Shown here: positions 3,752-54,025 of the stretch, in pieces
Position numbering within the stretch: the first letter of the stretch is position 1
How the letters are laid out: every line of letters begins with the position of its first letter
From: Aphelenchoides besseyi
Taxonomy: Eukaryota > Nematoda > Chromadorea > Rhabditida > Aphelenchoididae
Direction of reading: 5' to 3'
DNA: 64,000 nt
Assembly (NCBI GenBank): GCA_024699855.1
Contig: JAMPIQ010000001.1
Span: 11,718,001 to 11,782,000 of the forward strand
The notes under the pieces: model-generated
Database searches by the model: none
What the model was told of the DNA's origin: nothing
The model's input: only the letters and a program-made list of their open reading frames with translations
Translations under genes and position numbers: made by a program

Positions 3752-5145
3752 ATGCGGTTGAGCTTTTTGTTAGCAACTATTTGGATCTACGTGGCAATTG
3801 CCGAGGAAACTCCCGCATCCCCGACGAAACAACGATATGCGATCATCAGCGTTCAGATGCTTCGCGGAACTAAAAATGTTCGGTGAGTTCGTCAAAACCA
3901 AAATTCATTGTTGTTTGACTAACAATGAAGTAAGATGATGCTTGGAAGTCTTCGTGTATTAACTCTTCATTTGCAGATGGGAAACAAGAGCAATGTCGAC
4001 AATGCAGGATGGTAATCTGAACTTATTGACAAAACAAAAAAGTGTTCTAGGAAAACCAATCAAAACCAAGGGAGCTGATGGTTGTACTGATATGCAAGGA
4101 CAGAAGCATGGAAACAACGAGGAGTACAAACGTAGCAATCACAACCACTTTACATATAAATGTGTTGATGGAGCCGAAGAAGTCGCTGGTATGAACATAA
4201 GTTTAAAAATTCTTCCTAGTGTTTTTTCCAGCATGCATCGGATCTAATCGTACAAAGAATGCACGAATCGAAGTTGGTCAAAATTTGGAGGTTGATGGAT
4301 TCTGGGTAATTAGACGACATGAATGAAAAACAAATTCAAATTACAGCACAAATGTCAATCATTTGAAAATGGATCGGTCGTGTATACTCAAGGTAATCAA
4401 ACGAAATGTTCCCGTTTAACAATTGTATTGTGCAGAGAACTCGTGTCGTGACTTTTCGGGAAAAGAAATTCACATCGGCGACGAGATTTCGGCCATGAAT
4501 TTGCGTTTTGCTTGCGCTGATGGTTCTTACAAAGTTGTGGGTACGTACCGATTTAGCATATTGAGTTGACATCGATGCTTTAGGTTGTACGTATAAAGGC
4601 GAAAATGGTCAGGAACAAAAACTAAACGAAGGGGAAGAACGTCAAGAAGGAAAACTAACTCACGTTTGTGAAGGAAAAGATGGAAACGTTCAATATTCAT
4701 CGAAAGGTCAAGGTGGATGTTCGAAAAACGGAAAAGATTACAAGGTAAATCGAAGATTAAACGTGAAGAAAAACAACAAACTTTATAGGAAGGTGACAAA
4801 TTTCAAGAGAATCATTTGAAATACGAATGCAAGAATGGAATTGTTGATATCACTGGTTGTTACGTCAAAGAAGGACAAGATTTGGAAATTGGAAAAGATG
4901 TTGCTGAACAAGGAACTCTCCATAGATGTTATCGTCTTGGAGCCAAAATCGAGTATTCAGAATCCCCATGTGCTGGTGAATCATGCACGAATCCACCGCC
5001 AATTCCCGAGACTCCTGATGAAGTACCAGCTTTAGGACGTGGCCTCAAGAGCCCCGGCGTGGCCTCATTCTCAATTGTCAGCAATGGGGACCCACAGAAA
5101 GAAATTAAACTAAATCTGGACAAGCAAATGATGGGACAAAAGTGA
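3752..5145 (+). CDS. Secreted MIG-18-like repeat protein (fibronectin type I-like modules)
   Basis: Seven exons (3752-3882, 3977-4188, 4232-4305, 4347-4392, 4436-4540, 4584-4744, 4789-5145) encode about 361 residues. A signal peptide (MRLSFLLATIWIYVAIA) is followed by at least five modules of about 55-60 residues with the pattern GC..G........F.......F.C..G......GC, for example FACADGSYKVVGC. This is the nematode 'abnormal cell migration protein 18-like, fibronectin type I' arrangement. In C. elegans MIG-18 is a secreted protein acting with the ADAMTS protease MIG-17 at gonadal basement membrane. The C-terminal 55 residues (PPPIPETPDEVPAL onwards) are Pro-rich and not modular. All introns are GT-AG and 42-94 nt. 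An extracellular matrix role is inferred from the family. Confidence 0.65.
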
Positions 5146-11212: not shown

Positions 11213-13459
11213 ATGCCGAAGCCGTTGGCTTTTCGACAAGGCGTCTATAAACCGAAAGCTTATACGTTTTGGATGACTACGGACTTAGAGGTCTGTTTGA
11301 AGATTGGATCGCAAAAGAAGAAACATATTAATTTCAATCAACGTACATTAACGAATTCGTTTTAGGATACGCTCGAAAAGATACCTATAAGAGCACGTAG
11401 TCAATCATGGCTGATACGTACACGGCATCTTCTCGATGAAGATAAGGTAATTACTTGGACCTTGATTCGAAACCTTCATTTCTTTGCAGAATCATCGAAC
11501 TCCAATCATCTCTCATTGTTTGTACATTCTGTCGATTATCACCCTTTTTCTTACATTACCATTTTGCCTGCCTTTTTGTATAAAAATCACAAAGTAATCA
11601 GGGACTCTTCCATATGTAATAATCAGTTATTTAAGGGAATATGAGCGTGGTGTAGTCTTTCGATTGGGAAGATTGTTGAAAAGTGGCACAAAAGGTGAGT
11701 GATCTTATTCAGAATTCAGACGAGTTTGTTGTTACTCGGTTTGGAACAAACTTTTCGTTATCTGCGAAAAATGAGTCCATGTGAAGTAGAAACAATTGGA
11801 AAACATGTGAACACAGAAAAATGACAAGTATACGAAAATGAAATATGTTGATGTTGCCAAGGATATTTGTGATGATTGAAATGAGACGTTGGTTCCGGGG
11901 ACAATGTGTTGCATAGCCAGTTTTGCGAGCGAAGAAGCATCGATTCTGCAATGAATGTGATTAACGTTGTTTTGGAACTTTAGTACCGTAATTTGCATCA
12001 TCGTTTTCCTTGAACTGAACCGTTTGAAGCGCTGATTCGTAAGTGGTGATGCGAGTGACGAGATCGTCCATGATTGCCAACGAGTCTGCCTGTTTTGCCA
12101 AATTCACACGCTCGACGAACTGTTTTTCCGCTATTCCCTAAATACGCATATAAGAAAACGAGAATTAGACTTACCAAATCTGCGATCATGTTTTGAAAAC
12201 GCGAATTCTGCGATTCGAGAATTTGGGGCGGGCGGCGTCTGACTTCATCGCGATTGATTTCGTATGCAATGTAGTACTCGTATTGTTCGAGTGCTTTTTT
12301 GTGTTTCTCGGTTAGCTCCTCGTCCGCTAGAAGTTGACCCTCTTCGGCCAAGTGCTTCGTAGTCCGCCGCCATTTTGTTTTGTAGGTAATTTTCTTTGAA
12401 TTTAGGTCCTGGGATCTTTTTTATAATCCCGTGTTTGGATGTTGTAAAAATCGTCGATCTTCGAGTCTTATCATTCGACGTGCCGTCACAGGAAATACTG
12501 TCACGAGGTGAAAGTCGAAATGAATGTGTTCGTAATTGCTGTTTATTTAGATTCTGTGACTGTTAGTGTGGAGGCTGTCATCTATTTCCGTGTGTCAAAT
12601 CCCGTAATCTCGGTCACTAATGTCTCTGATGCTCAGTTTTCAACGAAGCTTTTGGCTCAAACAACGCTAAGAAATGTGTTAGGCAAGTTTCTACAATTCA
12701 AAAGGTTTTTTCGATTCAGCGAAACCATCGGTTATAAGGGAAATCAAATCGAACTCTTTTTTAGGTACAAAAACGTTGAGTGAAATATTGATGGAGCGGG
12801 ATTCGATCGCTTCGATAACCGAAAAAGTTCTCGACGATGGCACAGTTCCGTGGGGCGTGAAAGTTCAACGTGTGGAAATCAAGGACATTCGACTGCCGCA
12901 CATGCTCATGAGATCGATGGCCGCTGAAGTCGTCACGTTGATTCGGAATTGAATTGTATTTTCGATTTTAGGCAGAAGCAGCTCGTGGAGCACAAGCAAA
13001 AATAAGTTCAATTTGAAGGCTGTTTACTTGATATTTGCACTTTATCCAAAATTCTGATCCGGGGCGTTTGACGCAAAGTATCAGAGGTCACGTTTCCGGA
13101 GCAGATGATTTCGAAGAATATCACCGGTCTTGTGAACTTAAAAAGCAAAAGCTGGAAACAAGCTGTTGCTTTAATGTCCTTTTGTCGTAAAAATCAGAAT
13201 GTTAAATTTGTAGGTTATTGCATCTGAGGGCGAACGTCTTGCTTCCAGAGCGTTGAGCGAAGCAGCGAAGATCATTGCGCTATCTCCAACAGCAATTCAA
13301 CTTCGGTACTTGCAAACGCTCATTAATATCAGGCAAGTGGGTGTCGATTACTCGTTTTGCAATTCAAAACATTGCAGTAGTGAGAAGAACAAAGCGATTG
13401 TCATCCCGATTCCCATCGAATTGGTGCGAACCGTCATGAACTCACGATGTTGTCGATAA
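11213..13459 (+). CDS. Stomatin-family SPFH/band 7 membrane protein
   Basis: Ten exons (11213-11290, 11366-11446, 11490-11593, 11636-11694, 12406-12507, 12551-12682, 12765-12928, 12972-13001, 13214-13332, 13378-13459) encode about 316 residues. A hydrophobic hairpin (ISHCLYILSIITLFLTLPFC) precedes the band 7 domain: EYERGVVFRLGRL, PGIFFIIPCLD, DSVTVSVEAVIYFRV, MERDSIASI, then AEAARGAQAKVIASEGE and LRYLQTL. Stomatins sit on the inner face of membranes, form oligomers and modulate ion channels; in C. elegans several act in touch neurons. Intron 4 (about 710 nt) contains an antisense gene. Three introns are non-canonical: GC donors at 12683 and 13333 and an AT donor (ATAAGT) at 13002. The reading frame is otherwise intact. 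AATAAA lies near 13664. Confidence 0.9.
11961..12351 (-). CDS. Nested antisense gene: small helical/coiled-coil protein
   Basis: Two exons (complement 12175-12351 and 11961-12137, 37-nt GT-AG intron) encode about 117 residues lying entirely inside stomatin intron 4 on the opposite strand. The sequence is polar and heptad-rich (ADEELTEKHKKALEQYEYYI, then LGIAEKQFVERVNLAKQADS), typical of small subunits of coiled-coil complexes. No family is identified. A second possible 3' end exists: a GTACTA donor near 11984 and TTGCAG near 11946 would replace the last residues with a longer tail ending near 11758. Confidence 0.65.
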
Positions 13460-39528: not shown

Positions 39529-40919
39529 ATGTCTATTATGCCTACTGGCCAATCGGTGATACCCGAACTATCGCTTCCAAGCAAGGACTCGGTTATCAAA
39601 TTTGCCAAGGATTTCAGTTTGGGAGGCGGATCAGCGGTTGTAGCTAAAACATTGATAGCACCCATAGAACGAGTGAAACTGATTCTTCAGGTTTGTTTGA
39701 AGTTTATTTTGTTTTATTCTTTGTAGTTACAAGCAGCACAAAGCACCATTGAAGCCACAAAACGATATAATGGCATGATAGATTGTTTTTTGCGTGTGCC
39801 ACGCGAGCAAGGATTCTTGAGTTTTTGGCGAGGTATCAGTTACTCTACTTGACGCACCGTTCGTCTAATTCTCGATACCTTCAAAATCTTCACATATTTT
39901 GAAAATACTTTAGTCGATCTTGTTTTGAAGATTGGAAGATGCGATTGTCAGAAGAGTACTGAACAGTGCGTCAATTAGAGTATTTTTGGGTAACTGGTCA
40001 AATATTCTACGAGCTACAAGTCAAGTGAGTTCACTGATTCCAGTTGTCTATTCATCGCTTATTTTAGGAATCGCTGGGCATGGCGTTCAAGGAGTTCTTT
40101 AAAAAGTACACGGTTAACGAGACAAACAAATCATCTAATTTCTCGCATTTTATTGGCGGTTGGTTTGATTGACAACAAGTTGTTTCGAGCTTGTAAGTTT
40201 AGGGAATCTGTTGGCTGGTGGTCTGTCTGGTTGTGCAACATTCTTTTTCATTTATCCTCTTGATTTCTCTCGTACACGGCTTGCAATCGACATGGGCAAA
40301 GATCAGACAAGTCGAGAGTTTCGTGGACTTGCCGATTGTCTCATTAAAATCGTCAAACACGATGGTTTCTTTGGCTTGTACAGGTAACGTTAGTAGTGAA
40401 TTCTATGCTGATCCTTTTGTTTAATTGTAGAGGTTTAGTGCCGAGTCTTCAGTACATTTTTCTCTATCGAAGTGCCTATTATGGTAATTTGAATTTAGTA
40501 TTAAAGCAATTTATCACATGCTGCAACTAAAACAATATTTCAGGTCTTTTCGATACAATGAAAGTTTGGGTGATCGATCGAGGATACGGAAACAAACAAA
40601 ATGATCTCAGTTTTCTGGCAGCTTTTGCGATCGGTCAAGTCACGACATTCATCGCTGCAATGTTCTCATACCCACTAGATACGGTGCGAAGACGGCTGAC
40701 CATGGACGCTGGAAAGAAGATTCACGCTTATCATGGAACGGTTGATTGCACGAAGGTTAGATCGATGTTCGAATCGGTATTTTGAATTGTGGATTCTAGA
40801 AAATCTATCGACTTGAAGGCTTTAAAGCGTTCTATAGTGGTGCTTTTGTGAATGCAATTCGTGGAGTTGGAGCGGCGTTGATTCTCGCGCTATACAACGA
40901 AAGTTCGAAGTTTATCTAA
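39529..40919 (+). CDS. ANT: ADP/ATP translocase (mitochondrial carrier family)
   Basis: Eight exons (39529-39690, 39727-39832, 39990-40024, 40068-40158, 40203-40383, 40431-40483, 40544-40755, 40800-40919) encode about 319 residues. It exchanges cytosolic ADP for matrix ATP across the inner membrane. Three carrier signatures are present: PIERVK, PLDFSR and PLDTVR, each ending an odd-numbered helix. The hallmark RRRMMM of ADP/ATP carriers appears as RRRLTM, so this is a divergent paralogue. [23 protein letters not shown] is typical. Intron 2 (39833-39989) is 157 nt, carries a palindromic element and ends in GG rather than AG; unless this intron is removed exactly, the frame breaks after FWRG. 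Confidence 0.92.
39841..39982. mobile_element. MITE-like inverted-repeat element inside the carrier intron
   Basis: A 142-bp segment begins TACTCTACTTGACGCACCGT and ends with its near-perfect reverse complement (22-bp terminal inverted repeats, two mismatches) with TA at both ends. The interior is also partly palindromic (CTTCAAAATCTTC facing GTTTTGAAGATT). Size, TA ends and lack of coding match a Tc1/mariner-type MITE. It makes up almost all of the intron. Confidence 0.65.
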
Positions 40920-44550: not shown

Positions 44551-45012
44551 CTAATCTTCGTCTTCCTCCACGTACTGGTTCCCACTGAAGAAGATTTTTG
44601 CCTTGTTATTATCATTCGCTTTTAATTGATGAGGCATTTGAAAGTCCGAGTAGCATTGCGGCAAACAGTCGGCCGTTCGACAGCACGCTCCATCGATCTC
44701 CGAAATTTCACATTGACCGTGACAGCATTTGGTAGCCAGACGTTTAATGTGATCATGGGTTACTGTGTTGTCGATTCCTATAATCGAAACAATAAGACTG
44801 TGATTTTGATTATAAGTGAACTTACGAGGAAATTTCAAGCAGGTTTCTGATTGGCCGGGATAAATACAGTAATCGTTGATTCGTGAAATCCAACCACTGA
44901 TGCAGTTCTGAAGAACTGCATTTGCCCGATGATTGTGGGAATTCGTAGGCAAAGCAACACCGTTGAAGTGTAGGGCGAAGAGTGTGAAGAAAAAGGTGCA
45001 GAGATTTCGCAT
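44551..45012 (-). CDS. Insulin-like peptide precursor (candidate)
   Basis: Two exons (complement 44826-45012, 44551-44777) encode about 137 residues. A signal peptide (NLCTFFFTLFALHFNGVALP) is followed by a B-chain-like segment with C-x11-C (QNCISGWISRINDYCIYPG). A linker ends in a dibasic KR directly before an A-chain-like segment with the exact insulin spacing CC-x3-C-x8-C (KCCHGQCEISEIDGAC). The order B, linker, KR, A and both spacings fit the insulin superfamily. Unusual are an extra Cys in the linker (SETC), an added C-x5-C-x3-C run after the A chain (CRTADCLPQC) and an acidic C-terminal extension (YVEEDED). These could form extra disulphides; another cysteine-rich secreted family remains possible. 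Confidence 0.55.
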   Translation of the reverse strand: MRNLCTFFFTLFALHFNGVALPTNSHNHRANAVLQNCISGWISRINDYCIYPGQSETCLKFPRKFTYNQNHSLIVSIIGIDNTVTHDHIKRLATKCCHGQCEISEIDGACCRTADCLPQCYSDFQMPHQLKANDNNKAKIFFSGNQYVEEDED

Positions 45013-48000
45013 GATGATCAAAGAAAATTGAGGAATCAAAAAGTAAATCGCTTAACGATGGCTTGGAGTCGTAAACCGACGTGTTGATTTATACCATGTT
45101 CTTGACTCCGCCTCACACAGGTGGTCGTTTTAAAGTGCCAATTGAGTATTCGGAGAGAACAAAGACACGCGATTCGGCCATAGGCCAAGTACGCGATTTG
45201 AAACCACGCCTCTACCGGTGTTTTTTGTACACTAAAAGGGCAGACCTAATAACAACGTACAATCCCAAAAGTGCAAATCCAACGAAAAGATCTTCGCAAT
45301 TCTTGTTTTCACGAATCAACGTAACAACTTGCACTTTTATGTCGACTCATCAACTATCGTGTTAAATACACGATTCAAGCATTGAATGAACTGTAAATAT
45401 TATGATCAATAAGATACGAGGCGAATGTGCTCTATTATACACTTAGAATCGAAATTCCAGCAATCTAACTGTTGTTTGAGTTGTGACATTTGGTTCCTGT
45501 TTACGTCAATTTATACGTCGTAAATAATAAACACGGTTGAATGCATCTATTGTGTTTAATATTCTTATTTGAGGTTTTTATTTGTCGATTCATGCCTCAA
45601 TTCGTCGAACTGTGTGGGTTGCAAGAACACTTGTTCTCCAATTTTGAAAAGTTCACTCAAAGCTTTGCGTTAACAAGTTGGTGTGCATAATTGTGCTTCA
45701 CTTCCTTTGTTCATAGAAATTAATCAAAAGGTTGAAATCATACTCGAACACGTGGTTTCAATCTTTTAGCTCACGTCAGCTTTGAACATTGTAAACACCA
45801 TAGGAAAGTGCAAAGACCTAGCAAATCGTCTCGGGTTGTATTCAAGGCCCGGTCTTTCAATTAAACTCGAGACCGAAGGCGATTGTCACGCATATTTTTT
45901 CGTCGCATGCGTTTTGACGGTAAATTATAAGAAGAGTAAAGATACGGTTCTCAAAAGTAGTTTGCACCGTATGATGATGGAAACAAAAACTGGTCTTTGA
46001 CTTTGCACAATGTAAAATGAGTGATTGATTCGCCAAAATACACCCGTTTCATCAGCTGTTTCTAGCTGTTCAAAATACAAAACAGTAGGTAACGGTATTT
46101 AGTACGGTGGTGACTCCGCGCCGATTTGTAGTTTTGATTCATAACTTCAAAAACATATGTCAAATTATGCACGTGACATAGTCCAATATGCTCTTAATTG
46201 ACTCATTCATTTGTCAAAATATTGACCGTAAGTTCGAAGTTATAAAACTTCAAGAACACTAAATTCAATTGGTCATTTGACATGAAACCTCGCAAATTAG
46301 CTGCAGAATTGAACTGATGTTGCATCCTATTCAACGCGAAGTACGGCGAAACTGCTCGAACAAAAACTCAATTGGCTTCGAGTGTCAAAATGCCAACTCT
46401 CAACGCACGTTTTTGTTTCGCTTAGAACACAATCAACTGGACGCTATTCATATTCCAAAGTGCACTTTAACTGATGATATCAACCACATGACTTCTCAAA
46501 TGAAATGAACAGACATAAAGTAGCTAGCGTACAAGTGTTATTTCAAGGATTTTACAACAAGTTTCCAAATCAGGTGCTAGCTTGCAATGTACAAATTTCC
46601 GTGAAGTCGAGGACACCAGTGATTAGAACTGTCCACGAGAAAGATAATTACAGATCATCAACGAGAGACAGAGTTCAACCCACACTTTTCTATACGAAAG
46701 TGCAGAGATTCTAAGACAGACAAAATATGGACGTGGCACTAATTCTCGAAACGATGTTTAATAGGCGGTCATCAGCAAGCAACTGATATCGCACTCTGTA
46801 CTTATCAGCTTTAATGCATTTCTTTGTTTAAAAAGAAGTTGATTGTACGGTATCTTTCATGTACACTTCAACGACAATCTAAACGAACAAGAAAGTACCA
46901 TTGAAAGCTGTACAGTTGCAAAAACCTCCATTCAACACCCAACAAAGACCACGCAATCAATCTCCGGTTATTTTGGATATTTACAGAATTGACGACATTT
47001 AAATGTTGCGATTATTACGGTTCTGGAGTTCAAAAAAACGAATCCAAATCGGGACTTGTAAAAAGCAGTGATTTAAAAGTACACTTGTATTGATTGAAGC
47101 TGCCTAGGTCATCGGTCATTTGCGTGACAACCTAGTCGAAAAAATACCACGACAACCAAATCGACGTGAAATTTATCATTTTTTCAATTATGACGACAGC
47201 AGACACGATTAAATCAATTGTCTACTCAAACAGTACCAGCTAATGAAGCCAAGAGGTCCGGGGAAAGTGCACGGTCAATAGTTTGCATCGTTAAGTGCAA
47301 ATACGCAATTTTCATCAACTACACTCAATTGTTTCCGGTTTGAATCAACATTTTACACCTATGACTTTCGACCATTTAACACAAACAAAAATGTTTACGA
47401 AACCAGGAATCACATGTCAATATCGGATCAGTCGGTTAAGAACTATGGTGCTCAGAAAGTTTTTTTGTATCCCCGACCAAAATAGACTCACATTTCCATC
47501 GATCAACGTCCAGACAGTCCACTTCAATTTACTCTTAACGGCCAATTAGTGAGGATCCAATTAGAATTCCTTAAAAAGTTGGAATGCAAAAGTTCGTGTG
47601 ACCGTCGTTCACTGATTCTGCGAAGTGACAAATCAAACGTCGTCATAGACTGCACTTTGATTGCATAGTTTCAAAAAAACGAGTCAAATGCTTTCAACGA
47701 ACACCACAAAAATACGAAATCGCGTGCCGAACGCGATAGTTCAAGCGTGTTATAAAACCGGTCCAGCGGTCGCGATGCAAACCGACGTTCCCTACAGTAG
47801 TTATGACATTTGGTTGACGCATTAAAAGAATGTGCGTGATGCCTCTTTTGCTCGGACGCTATCGTACATCAACAAAAGTGCACATTTGAAGAGCCAATCG
47901 AAGCCAAAGAAAAGTAAATTCAATTAGTTGAGACTTACCATATAATTTATCTCCACGTGTTTCATATTTTCTATTTGTATATTCAGATGTTTGGGAAGTT

Positions 48001-48104
48001 TATTCGGCTGACACAAGTGAACATTTTGAATTACAAAAGTGAAACAATGGGAAACCGATCAATTGGATTGACGTACAGTTCACTCGAAGATTGTAAATTA
48101 CGTT
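45013..48104. promoter_or_regulatory. 3-kb non-coding region with clustered AAAGTGCA motif
   Basis: No supported gene. The 8-mer AAAGTGCA occurs, in either orientation, near 45268, 45330, 45805, 46458, 46461 (together a palindrome), 46698, 47264, 47651 and 47875, with a near match at 47293. The sites lie upstream of the insulin-like gene and downstream of the LDLa gene. Flanks of the sites differ, so they are not copies of a longer repeat. AGTGCA is the half-site reported for the nematode nuclear receptor DAF-12; functional assignment here is inference. Confidence 0.5.
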
Positions 48105-49266
48105 TTACGTCAAGCGACGTGGGGTTTGTGTTGATCCGACGGAGTTGAATTCAGAAGTCGTGCGATGAGGCATTCTGCGAGGTTTGTTGTCGACTGCGGA
48201 AACGGGTGATGCAACAGTTAGTTTTGTGCTTCGAATTGCATCGCGCATTATAAACGTGGCCCGCGGTTGAATAACCGACTTATTGATTGGATGACCTGAA
48301 AGGGCTGTAGCAGAAGATATGAATGCCGAACCGCTGTTGTTTGATTGGGGTTCGATTATTGTGCGTGCCGTTACGGTTGAAGTCAATCGAGTTGTTTCTG
48401 ATTTACTGTACGATGGCTGTGCCGAGGGTTTGTTTCGAGTTTTTTCCATTTTGTTTTCTTCAATTGTTGTGGCTTCACAATTCATTTCATCTGTTCCATC
48501 TCTACAGTCTCTTCGACCGTTACATTGAAGTTGTGTAGGAATGCAAGCAGCAAAATGTTGACATTGAAACTCATCATCTTTGCACACTATTGCTTTTGGA
48601 ATTGTATCAACAATTGAAGGAACTAATCTTGGGACATGTCCAAGAGGATTACTCTCATCGCAATCCACTTCATCTTGACCATTTAAACAATCTTGAATTA
48701 AGCGTTCGACCTTTAAACTTGTATAGGAAATCAACCTTTGTGTTTATCGCATCGAAACGATTCGGGAATACACTTCGAATCGCATTCAAAATGAAGAGAC
48801 GGACAATTGCCACGCTCTGAATTCAATCAATTAGACTCATCTTCGTTATCATCAGTCGATTACCGAATACTCCTTTTTTTGCTCCCAGAGGTTCACAAAG
48901 TTCATGGTTTTCATCTTCGCTATCTCGACACTAAATTCGGTATTGAGTGATTAGTATGCGCATGTAAACTCAAACATCAGATGTTCCATCGCAAAGCTGC
49001 AAATTCAATAATCGCTTCATTACCACAAGTTAACTTACCCATTCCGTAGGAATGCACTTTCCACTTGTGCATCTGAAATCGGGATCAGGAGCTGGAACAT
49101 CGACTTACCGAAAATGTTTTCCATCTTCGTCGCATTTAACTGAAAATGAACCACTTAAAGCAACGAGCTTTTCACTCCTACCGTCCAGAAAACTATTCGT
49201 TTGTGCTTGAATTAAAATGTGATTAACAGAAACAATTAGAACAATAAACTGTTTTATGATCGACAT
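48105..49266 (-). CDS. Secreted protein with three LDL-receptor class A modules
   Basis: Seven exons (complement 49182-49266, 49109-49139, 49039-49072, 48976-48996, 48864-48930, 48736-48816, 48105-48691) encode about 301 residues; three internal exons are 21-34 nt. A signal peptide (FIVLIVSVNHILIQ) is followed by three LDLa repeats, each with six cysteines and a calcium-binding acidic end: CIPTEWLCDGTSDCRDSEDE, CIPESFRCDKHKDCLNGQDE and CIPTQLQCNGRRDCRDGTDE. The last 130 residues are Ser/Thr-rich and likely O-glycosylated, without a transmembrane helix. Suggests a secreted matrix or lipoprotein-binding protein. AATAAA on this strand lies near 47998. Confidence 0.85.
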
Positions 49267-49601: not shown

Positions 49602-51166
49602 TTATCTTCCGTATCGAATATCATCTTCGGGGGTCTGGGGAGGTGTAAAGACCAAAGTATGTTGAGGCGTACTTTGACTATCGGCTCTTGGTGTATTTGA
49701 AGGAAGATAGTTGTAGAACGGCGAAATACTCGCCGGTTCAATGGGCATTTGCATTGGAGCATCTTGCCATAAGAATTGTTCTTTGTAGTACAAATGAAGT
49801 GGACCATCATATCCTGAAAACCGATCTTGTTTTATTTCTCTTAAACTCTTCGTACCCAAATGTTGGATCAGTGGATTTTCCAGCTCTTCGCAATGTACGA
49901 ATCCAATTTCACCGCACAAATAATCCTTGAATTGCTCGGGCCAAAATTGGATGGCTTTCAAGTTTCGTTTTAACTCGGGATGCTTCCACGCACGCTTCTT
50001 GTATCCACGACTCGTTTGCGGTTCGAGAAGAAACTTTCCATTCGGTTTCAATTGTTTGAAGACACGTTTGAAGAAACGTTTCAGTCCATCGTCACCCCAA
50101 TTCAAATGAATCCACTTGCTGATTGACCAAGCAAGAATCTGAAAACGAGTAGTAATCAAAATATAAGCTCATTAGAACTCACAATATCATATTCTTCTTC
50201 CACGTCATTTAGCTGTTCATCGTTGTCAAGCACGTAGTTTTCCTTACGAAACCAAACGTTTTCAGGAAATTGATTAGATGTAGTTGTAGATGGCATAGAA
50301 ATAGGACCCAAATTAAAAGGAAACGATGCAGGAAAACGTCCAACAAGCTAGAAACGGGTTTGTAATGCATACTATAAACTCTTTCTTACCTTCGCTTCCT
50401 TGTCCCGAAAATGTCGAAGATTCTTTCGCGCTGCTGCTACCAAATGGTAGTCAATATCGATGCCAAGAATTCTTAGTGGACTAAATTCCCGTGCAATTGA
50501 GATCGTCAAAAGACCGCTGTTGCATCCAATATCCAAAACATTCTTATCTAAAAAAACTGACATCAAGCGTGCCATTTTGACACAAACAAACCTTTGAACC
50601 AGTCGTCGCACATCAAATCCAAACGTGGATCTTTTTGGAAAGGTGTTTGAGTCCGATGAAAATAATTGAAGTTTCCATAACGATACCGATTAGCCATTTT
50701 TTCTCTTTTTGCTTTTCTCTTAGCTATTTGGTCCAATTCATCTAATGGTTCTTCCTTCTTGACGTCTTCAAAAACTTCTTTTTTGGGTTGCTTTTTCGCG
50801 TGTGATGTACGAAACGAAAATCGACGCTGATGAACGGCACCGGGAAGCACATGACATTCCTCCAATCGTTTTATTCTGCAATACATTCATAAAGAGCAAA
50901 TACGAACAAGAAACTACCTGTCGTATGCCGTCTTCTCAGATCCACTTGTGTTCAAATTCAACGGATCGTTTGGAGTTCCTCCAAGCGGATTGCTGTATGC
51001 ACTTCTACGTGTCTTACGTCCATCTATCACGCCTAAAAGAGATGATTGAAATTGTTGTAAATCTGAGCTTGTTACCGGTATTACGTCGTTTCGGAGTCGC
51101 AGCGTCGGAATCGTTTGTTCCATCGGCCGTTCGCTTCAACGACAGTTCTTTCGATGTTACATCCAT
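49602..51166 (-). CDS. MEPCE: 7SK snRNA methylphosphate capping enzyme
   Basis: Six exons (complement 51076-51166, 50918-51032, 50592-50875, 50390-50547, 50183-50347, 49602-50138) encode about 449 residues. The enzyme methylates the gamma-phosphate of 7SK (and related) snRNA using SAM, stabilising the P-TEFb-regulating 7SK RNP in the nucleus. A basic N-terminal region ([15 protein letters not shown]) is followed by YGNFNYFH, the SAM motif [16 protein letters not shown], the acidic motif [26 protein letters not shown], then [20 protein letters not shown] and [15 protein letters not shown]. An extra Pro/Thr-rich C-terminal segment ([16 protein letters not shown]) is present. An acceptor (TTTCAG) sits 10 nt before the ATG and a gene on the same strand ends 170 bp upstream, as in an operon. 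Confidence 0.95.
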
Positions 51167-51335: not shown

Positions 51336-51867
51336 CTAGTGCAATGACAGATCGGGAGTTGGAGGCTCAAGATCTTCGTCGTCTTCGTCATTTTCTAAAA
51401 TTTAATCGAATACAAAGGCAAATAAAAGTTTTTACTTTTGAAACATTTTGTTCGTACGACGCACTGCATGAATTCGACGAATTCTTCAGCACATGCTCCC
51501 TGTTCAAGTTCCGACTCATCGGCCGCTTTCTGACACGAGATCGCTTGACGAAATTCGTGGCCACATGGACTGGCAACCAAATGGCTAACACAATGACACT
51601 CGAAGTTAATGCTCCCGTCCGGTTTCGTCGAACCTAAACGCTTGTATGATAATCACAAGAAAAGCTCACATACCCGGATTGTAGTCGTCAATCAGGTCTT
51701 CGATGGGCATCTCGGTTAGTCCCTTGACATAAGGATCGGTGATAGGCGCCAAAAACTCTTCTCTGGTCATGACAATATACTAAAGCGATCATTTCAAGAC
51801 TAAAACATCTAAAGTCAACGAATACCTCGTGAGTGTTTTGTTTACTAGGATTCGTTTCAGCGCTCAT
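51336..51867 (-). CDS. CHCHD4: Mitochondrial import/oxidoreductase MIA40 (CHCHD4)
   Basis: Four exons (complement 51826-51867, 51674-51779, 51436-51633, 51336-51394) encode about 134 residues. MIA40 introduces disulphides into small proteins arriving in the intermembrane space. The twin CX9C frame is clear: CGHEFRQAISC and CAEEFVEFMQC with SPCG before it. The redox motif, CPC in most species, reads CHC (FECHCVSHLVASPC). The C terminus is acidic (NDEDDEDLEPP), as in the family. An AATAAA at 51284-51289 lies just downstream, before the MEPCE leader acceptor. Confidence 0.92.
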
Positions 51868-52839: not shown

Positions 52840-52953
52840 CGTCAACTGCAAAAAGACTCCCAATCGCATTCCGAAGCGTGAATAACACCGTCGCTTAAAA
52901 CACGATCGTAATTGTCGGTATTTTAGGTCTTCTTATCGTAACCTCTAAGGCTA

Positions 52954-54025
52954 ATGGTGCGCGATCGGCTGCGAGAGTTGGAAGTAGGTTTGATAAGAAA
53001 AATGAATCACTGAGCAAACAGTTGGAAATCTTTCAAACATTTAACGCAAACTTTCAGCAACGATCGCGACAAGAATATCCGAATCAGCATGCGAATGGAA
53101 CTTCGGTAGTTGTTGTTGATCCCGATCGTTTGCCCTATGACACGAGGATGTTGCCCGAACTGAATCAGATGAACGAACTTCGTCAGTCGATTAGTCGCTT
53201 GGAAGATCGAATACGAACTTTGAATCTGAAGCAAAGCCAACTTTTGAGTGCACCACAAATTGGACCTCAATCTCAAGAAGAATTGGAGTTTATGATCGAC
53301 GAAATCAAAGATCATATTCGTTCGTTGTATCCGCGTATTTCGAGCATCAAAGCTTCAATTATTCGAGATCGTCAGTTAGGTCATCAATCGGAAACCAAAA
53401 TCGCCATTCGACAAAACCAGTACGATTTGATTAAACGTCGCTTCGAAGATGTTTACGAGCTCTTCAACAGCAATCAAGTTGACTACAAACGACGGCTATC
53501 GCGTAAATTCGATTAGGTTGTTTATTCTTTTAACTTGAAAATTTAGGTCGCGTGAAACGACAACTTCAACCGTTAACTACCGAGCATTTGACCGATCAAG
53601 ATGTTGACGAAATGTTGGAATCAAAAGCCGAAGATATTTTCTATCGTCGCATTAATCCATTGATGGCATCTGGTCAGGCGGTCTTGAAAGAAGTAACTCA
53701 TCGACACAACGAAATCTTATCGTTGGGACGAAGTATCAAAGAATTACACGATTTGTATTTGGAAGTTCAAATGATGATCTCTTTACAGGTATGCTTTCAG
53801 TGCTATTTCAAACAGCCAACAACTCTATAGGGTGAAACAGTGAATGATATTGAGAACAATGTTCAACTCGCTACTGATGCTGTTCATGAAGGAAATCAGA
53901 ATGTGATTGTTGCGAAAAACTACAAGAAACAGGCACAACGAAAAACATGCATTTTGGTCATCGTTGGAGTTGCAGTCTTATTCGCTTGTTTGATTATCGT
54001 GCTTTTATTAACATTAGGAAAGTAA
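52954..54025 (+). CDS. Syntaxin (Qa-SNARE)
   Basis: Four exons (52954-52983, 53022-53502, 53547-53788, 53831-54025) encode about 315 residues. It is a target-membrane SNARE mediating vesicle fusion. An N-terminal helical domain (ELEFMIDEIKDHIRSLYPRI, YDLIKRRFEDVYELF) corresponds to Habc. The SNARE motif follows: HRHNEILSLGRSIKELHDLY, with the ionic-layer Gln in ISLQGETVNDIENNV. A basic juxtamembrane KNYKKQAQRK and a C-terminal anchor (ILVIVGVAVLFACLIIVLLL) end it. The SNARE motif resembles plasma-membrane syntaxins (1-4 class). The long coil between residues 11 and 90 is not standard. An AG upstream of the ATG (GGTATTTTAG, near 52926) suggests a 5' UTR intron or leader site. Confidence 0.92.

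Follow-up and report, generated by a model that had tools for sequence, protein, structure and literature searches.

Why does one eight-base word, AAAGTGCA, recur so densely upstream of a single small gene of the plant-feeding nematode Aphelenchoides besseyi, and what might read it? In the window, by which we mean the whole stretch of 64,000 nucleotides that was analysed, the octamer is matched 13 times when both strands are counted, and nine of these matches fall within positions 45268-47882. As the palindrome AAAGTGCACTTT is counted on both strands, the nine correspond to eight physical places, with distances of 62 to 652 bases between neighbours (Table 1). All nine had been listed in a sequence-only reading of the window, and all are present; the two further copies that it had noticed elsewhere are in fact four (at 13036, 19864, 42022 and 49053). 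When every 8-mer in the window is ranked by its local count, AAAGTGCA comes top with nine, and the runner-up reaches six. That reading quoted a chance expectation of about 0.1; our own estimates for 2,615 bases are 0.13 from dinucleotide shuffles (3.12 copies per window) and 0.17 from the genome count. The latter, which the same reading had proposed as a check, stands at 3,129 copies in 47,386,574 bases (31 contigs; 0.066 per kb); the reversed word has 3,683, so that AAAGTGCA is not over-represented in the genome overall. Models of orders 1, 2 and 3 trained on the 3,045-base region that separates the gene from its neighbour predict 0.23, 0.30 and 1.06 copies, respectively, and the largest numbers seen in 1,500 draws are 3, 3 and 6. 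The cluster is thus real in the window; counts alone are insufficient to call it functional.

Table 1. Window coordinates of the octamer copies and of the features that surround them
Feature	Position	Strand	Remark
AAAGTGCA, copy 1	45268..45275	+	
AAAGTGCA, copy 2	45330..45337	-	
AAAGTGCA, copy 3	45805..45812	+	
Palindrome AAAGTGCACTTT, two overlapping copies (physical place 4)	46457..46468		
AAAGTGCA, copy 5	46697..46704	+	
AAAGTGCA, copy 6	47264..47271	+	
AAAGTGCA, copy 7	47651..47658	-	
AAAGTGCA, copy 8	47875..47882	+	
AAAGTGCC, one-base variant of AAAGTGCA in the proximal promoter	45132..45139	+	
TAAGTGCA, sole AGTGCA of the region without a preceding AA	47292..47299	+	
Region from the insulin-like gene to the 3' end of the next gene	45060..48104		bounds set by hand
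Likely insulin-like gene, exons 45012-44826 and 44777-44551, 48-base intron	44551..45012	-	137 aa
TATA-box-like TATAAAT, 75-81 bases upstream of the ATG	45087..45093	-	read from sequence
3'-most open frame of the neighbouring gene, LDL-receptor class A domains	48105..48743	-	PF00057, 43.6 bits

The cluster sits upstream of M3Y98_01130900, and our spliced model of this gene is 100% identical to the hypothetical protein deposited under that name for Aphelenchoides besseyi, which bears out the nematode origin presumed from the letters of the window. The product is likely to be insulin-like. Its cysteines are arranged as C-x11-C, then CC-x3-C-x8-C, with the intron separating the two halves, a spacing that we take to be that of the B and A parts of insulin. 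Moreover, a paralogue at C2:9936681 has the C-x11-C in common, followed by GQS and CLK, and scores 20.4 bits against the Pfam Insulin family (cut-off 23) and 14.8 bits against Ins_beta (cut-off 21); it aligns with the window protein at 3e-07 in a single BLASTP comparison, and at E 0.43 in the search of the genome. The cysteine spacing, the intron and this weakly scoring paralogue speak for the claim of an insulin-like gene, whereas the blank Pfam result for the protein itself (0 families) and the genome-search E value of 0.43 speak against it. A search of approximately 5.8 billion proteins, which needs shared 5-residue words, recovered M3Y98_01130900 itself alone, and the predicted spliced protein of the paralogue gave zero protein-database matches, itself included. 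Set beside the nematode beta-type insulins (PF03488), against which the paralogue scores weakly, the paralogue and the window protein share the B/A cysteine spacing; unlike those insulins, the window protein is without a Pfam match and has ten cysteines. The gene that bounds the region on its far side, and has LDL-receptor class A domains, lies on the same strand as the insulin-like gene. Other neighbours recognized by Pfam in the window are a mitochondrial carrier (40531-40785), a Bin3-type methyltransferase (49602-50689), a CHCH protein (51395-51652; just under the cut-off) and a syntaxin with a SNARE domain (52899-54025).

The enriched unit is the octamer. AGTGCA occurs 10 times in the region against 1.6 expected, and AA precedes nine of the ten (the palindrome being counted twice); in the rest of the window it precedes 4 of 32 (Fisher 1.4e-5). 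The exact octamer is found nine times, and all 24 of its one-base variants together seven times, against about 3.6 expected; such a mild excess of variants is what a true site may show. There is no exact partner half-site 0-8 bases from any copy, and two have a single mismatch; half-site pairing, for example as DR5, is no better than random, the mean best partner mismatch being 1.88 at the copies and 1.56 at random places. The related hexamers AGTTCA and AGTGCG occur, respectively, 7 times (3.35 expected) and once (0.75 expected), and AAAGGTCA has 0 occurrences in the region. The palindrome was considered as the unit and set aside, as it has 7 places genome-wide against 12 for its reversed control. 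The pentamer GTACA is also in excess in the region, with 15 occurrences against 4.4 expected; four of these are TGTACA palindromes counted twice.

The region presents many copies of one site, in either orientation and, as the sequence-only reading had maintained, with unrelated flanks, which is the pattern of a homotypic cluster. We put at roughly 0.5 the probability that 45060-48104 is a homotypic enhancer cluster composed of one factor's predicted sites, the factor probably being a nuclear receptor. Eight separate 8-base putative sites, in both orientations, would then be spread over 2.6 kb before the TATA promoter of the insulin-like gene; a single sequence-specific transcription factor would read the octamer, and the output of the gene would follow from its graded occupancy, summed over the sites. 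This factor would most likely be a nuclear receptor engaging, as a monomer, the AGTGCA half-site together with its AA 5' extension. The layout is that of the NBRE, AAAGGTCA, a monomer site in which AA precedes the hexamer AGGTCA and which is read by a single receptor; AA plus a hexamer is common to both, and the hexamer is AGGTCA there and AGTGCA here. As first candidates we would name two receptors of the DAF-12 group, and next the HNF4-derived receptors. The same factor probably governs a small set of genes, including a nuclear-receptor gene with a second cluster of its own. The two clusters, the lack of a further match to the region in the genome, the gene model and the candidate receptors are observations; that the octamer would be bound, that it would act on the insulin-like gene, and which factor would do so, we infer from the DNA.

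This second cluster is the strongest sign that a factor reads AAAGTGCA. It emerged when the whole genome was searched for octamers lying close together in pairs; 16 of 23 distinct close-pair places outside the window were examined (L055 to L070, 3-10 kb each); one of the 16, L059 (C2:7018501-7028500), holds such a cluster, and the other 15 hold 2 to 5 copies. L059 contains eight copies. One is inside a receptor exon, and the other seven fall within 2.6 kb (C2:7021288-7023907; L059:2788-5407), upstream of a nuclear-receptor gene on the minus strand whose ATG (L059:2135) is 0.65-3.3 kb away. The spliced C4 domain of this receptor, its exons joined by hand, scores 85.8 bits and has the P-box CSGCKG. 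Clusters of seven in 2.6 kb are expected 1e-4 times genome-wide, or 5e-3 and 5e-2 times at two- and threefold rates. One-base variants of the octamer number 11 there against 6.0 expected, and internal repeats of at least 25 bases are absent from the cluster. The recurrence of the same octamer in a second, unrelated stretch makes AAAGTGCA look like the site of one factor. Two of the seven copies, at 5143 and 5188, share a frame of 45 codons that begins with ATG and resembles coding sequence in its score (0.18; known exons score -0.09 to 0.34); without them five remain, and 0.1 such clusters are expected genome-wide. The possibility that these two copies are coding lowers the probability of the enhancer cluster and raises that of chance. 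The L059 cluster also precedes a plus-strand frame at approximately 6.6 kb, which is HPS5-like at 17.6 bits (cut-off 34) and could, rather than the receptor, be the gene that the cluster serves.

DAF-12 is a possible reader, one candidate among several. A special case of the enhancer-cluster reading, which we regard as conceivable though doubtful, is that DAF-12 itself binds the copies and so couples steroid signalling to insulin output, by feedback or feed-forward. The genome was searched with the DAF-12 domain of C. elegans, and exons were joined by eye. The best match, at C1:7971668, has exons spelling SCESCKAYFRRNA and NEEQLKRRKNSRLN, and a second receptor gene, at C1:7869066, spells TCESCKAFFRRNA; on the strength of this domain match, we take the former to be the DAF-12 orthologue and the latter to be of NHR-8 type. 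Over the 13 residues of the recognition helix, the NHR-8-type receptor is identical to C. elegans DAF-12, and the presumed orthologue, a point in favour of DAF-12 by its presence in the genome, differs at two. In PMC7343802, TCESCKAFFRRNA is given as the recognition helices of C. elegans DAF-12.

Precedent for AGTGCA as a DAF-12 half-site, as the sequence-only reading named it, is found in C. elegans, where PMC3140985 describes AGTGCA-related hexamers in DAF-12-bound regions and, in the nhl-2 promoter, 15 such hexamers with no direct repeat. The DAF-12 targets treated there (alg-2, with its DR5, and nhl-2) resemble our region in that an AGTGCA core is repeated upstream of one gene, and the hexamers of nhl-2 are unpaired, as they are in A. 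besseyi; unlike those targets, the present region has a strict octamer with AA, an insulin-like gene and putative sites known from sequence. Furthermore, Delta7-dafachronic acid alters insulin-like transcripts in Strongyloides stercoralis (PMC4092141) and dafachronic acid suppresses daf-28 in C. elegans (PMC4361679); such effects on insulin-like genes in other nematodes make DAF-12 control biologically plausible here. Strongyloides is likewise a nematode with insulin-like genes whose transcripts change with the DAF-12 ligand; the case rests on transcripts, and the available text of PMC4092141 describes no DNA element, the term 'response element' having 0 occurrences in its main text.

Against these points stand the strictness of the AA extension and the want of a DR5 or any other pair in the region; in addition, AGTTCA is in only weak excess, the helix of the orthologue departs from that of C. 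elegans at the two residues noted above, and neither receptor exon has a copy of AAAGTGCA within its 3-kb locus (L040, 0; L042, 0). Nor is there a cluster upstream of four other insulin-like candidates. Five insulin-like candidates were found in the genome, two of them above the cut-off, the fifth and weakest being examined within its 3-kb locus; the upstream stretches of four candidates other than the window gene (L049, L051, L052 and L053) hold 3, 1, 1 and 0 copies, respectively, and among the three of L049 is a palindrome some 10 kb away from its gene. This count near other insulin-like genes, which the sequence-only reading had also proposed, speaks against a simple DAF-12 reading, and AAAGTGCA was rejected as a general mark of such genes. 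What we find of a DAF-12 element is the AGTGCA core and, encoded in the genome, the DAF-12 recognition helix; paired half-sites are missing. The suggested half-site has published relatives (PMC3140985) and encoded receptors on its side. With an AA extension this strict, no paired half-sites, AGTTCA in weak excess and four insulin-like candidates elsewhere that lack a cluster, we would not classify the region as a DAF-12 element.

A further special case of the enhancer cluster, which we consider rather unlikely, is that an HNF4-derived receptor reads the octamer, perhaps the product of the L059 receptor gene, which would then be autoregulated. Such receptors are abundant, the C4 domain giving at least 87 exon-level matches among the 150 of 190 candidates that were scored, and it is a gene of this kind, with the P-box already mentioned, that the second cluster precedes. 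The HNF4-specific motif, CAAAGTCCA, differs from CAAAGTGCA by one base. On the other side, AAAGTCCA is not enriched in the region (0 against 0.10 expected). In PMC4434323, the motifs of C. elegans receptors are very diverse, and none of the receptors examined there matched the motif of HNF4; the latter point counts against an HNF4-derived reader, and the former is in keeping with one. From the same diversity it also follows that other receptors, or another class of factor, are still candidates.

A quite different account needs no reader, as some word is bound to cluster when about 33,000 words and many windows are open to inspection. We simulated 2,000 windows of 64 kb (order 3, overlapping copies merged), and an 8-mer of any kind reached eight merged copies in 2,615 bases in seven of them; with copies unmerged, some word reached at least nine in 5 of 120 windows. 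At these rates, a genome should contain a few clusters of this kind built from arbitrary words; if the word is left free, the cluster stands out within a single window, yet is not astronomically unlikely across the genome. The scarcity of one-base variants, which are hardly enriched, also suits chance. However, among words with at least three G/C none of the 2,000 windows yielded eight merged copies, and without merging eight copies were reached in 1 of 120 windows and nine in 0 of 120. The best 8-mer in the real window minus the region reaches five. For the fixed word AAAGTGCA, clusters of eight are expected 2.4e-6 times genome-wide at a uniform rate, 2.7e-4 at a doubled and 3.9e-3 at a tripled rate. 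Moreover, the same word clusters again in L059, which chance would provide with the expectation of 1e-4 given earlier (0.1 if the two possibly coding copies are dropped), and direct pairs of AAAGTGCA are in excess. On balance, we judge a post hoc coincidence to be improbable, though not strikingly so.

Close pairs were counted by arrangement and spacing. Direct pairs 0-30 bases apart number 13 (12 distinct) against 3.2 expected, and the reversed control gives 4 against 4.4; they are, therefore, about four times commoner than expected, and those 31-61 apart are not clearly so (five pairs, three being one repeated sequence, hence three distinct; control 5). Convergent pairs 40-70 bases apart are found at six places (1.6 expected; control 4), which include the window cluster, L059 and a transposon. 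Divergent pairs 0-30 apart give three matches at two places (control 3). Among the matches listed on both strands, 6 of 32 gaps between copies are below 2.6 kb, with 5.5 expected, which is chance-like. A four-copy place, L050 (3.4 kb), was set aside as close to the chance level, at which four copies are expected to fall within 2.6 kb 2.3 times in the genome.

Debris of a repeat or transposon is a far poorer explanation, and we think it very improbable. The octamer does occur in a Tc1-like element, L060:1785-3302, where four of the five copies in L060 lie in perfect inverted arms of 191 bases, two in each, surrounding a match to a Tc3-type transposase (23.3 bits; cut-off 31.5); the flank of this element, GACAGTCAAAAGTGCAGC, is missing at all eight places of the window cluster, and a transposon end was rejected accordingly. 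The region matches itself alone in the genome at E<=0.01, in a search that skips very common words, which disfavours a dispersed repeat, the outcome that the sequence-only reading had named as fatal to its proposal. Between 44000 and 49500, Rfam gives zero matches at E<=0.1, so no non-coding RNA gene is recognized there. Open frames over the window copies are short, with hexamer coding scores of -0.25 to 0.17; as five known exons score from -0.09 to 0.34 in frame and one known exon is missed, this rough measure cannot settle coding over the copies.

More speculatively, AAAGTGCA might be the operator of a small endocrine regulon, in which a receptor of the DAF-12 group would act on arrays upstream of insulin-like and receptor genes, such that steroid sets insulin output directly; we hold this to be an unlikely extension of the enhancer-cluster reading. 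The link from steroid receptor to insulin in nematodes has so far rested, in the sources as available, on hormone treatment and RNA levels. An octamer array at insulin-like and receptor genes would offer a concrete DNA element, testable with a few probes (AAAGTGCA, TTAGTGCA and a scrambled version) and one reporter. If the regulon is real, the steroid-to-insulin arm that was deduced from the Strongyloides RNA data would have a basis in cis, through an array of monomer sites.

Two further places among the close pairs can be recorded. In L062:670-2296 (C3:1276570-1278196), four copies of AAAGTGCA lie upstream of a cytochrome P450 gene. In L056:4001-4019 (C1:9671251-9671269), AAAGTGCAtagAAAGTGCA is a direct repeat of AGTGCA at a spacing of five bases, which is the arrangement published for DAF-12 as DR5; the likely ATG of a carboxylesterase gene follows 104 bases downstream.
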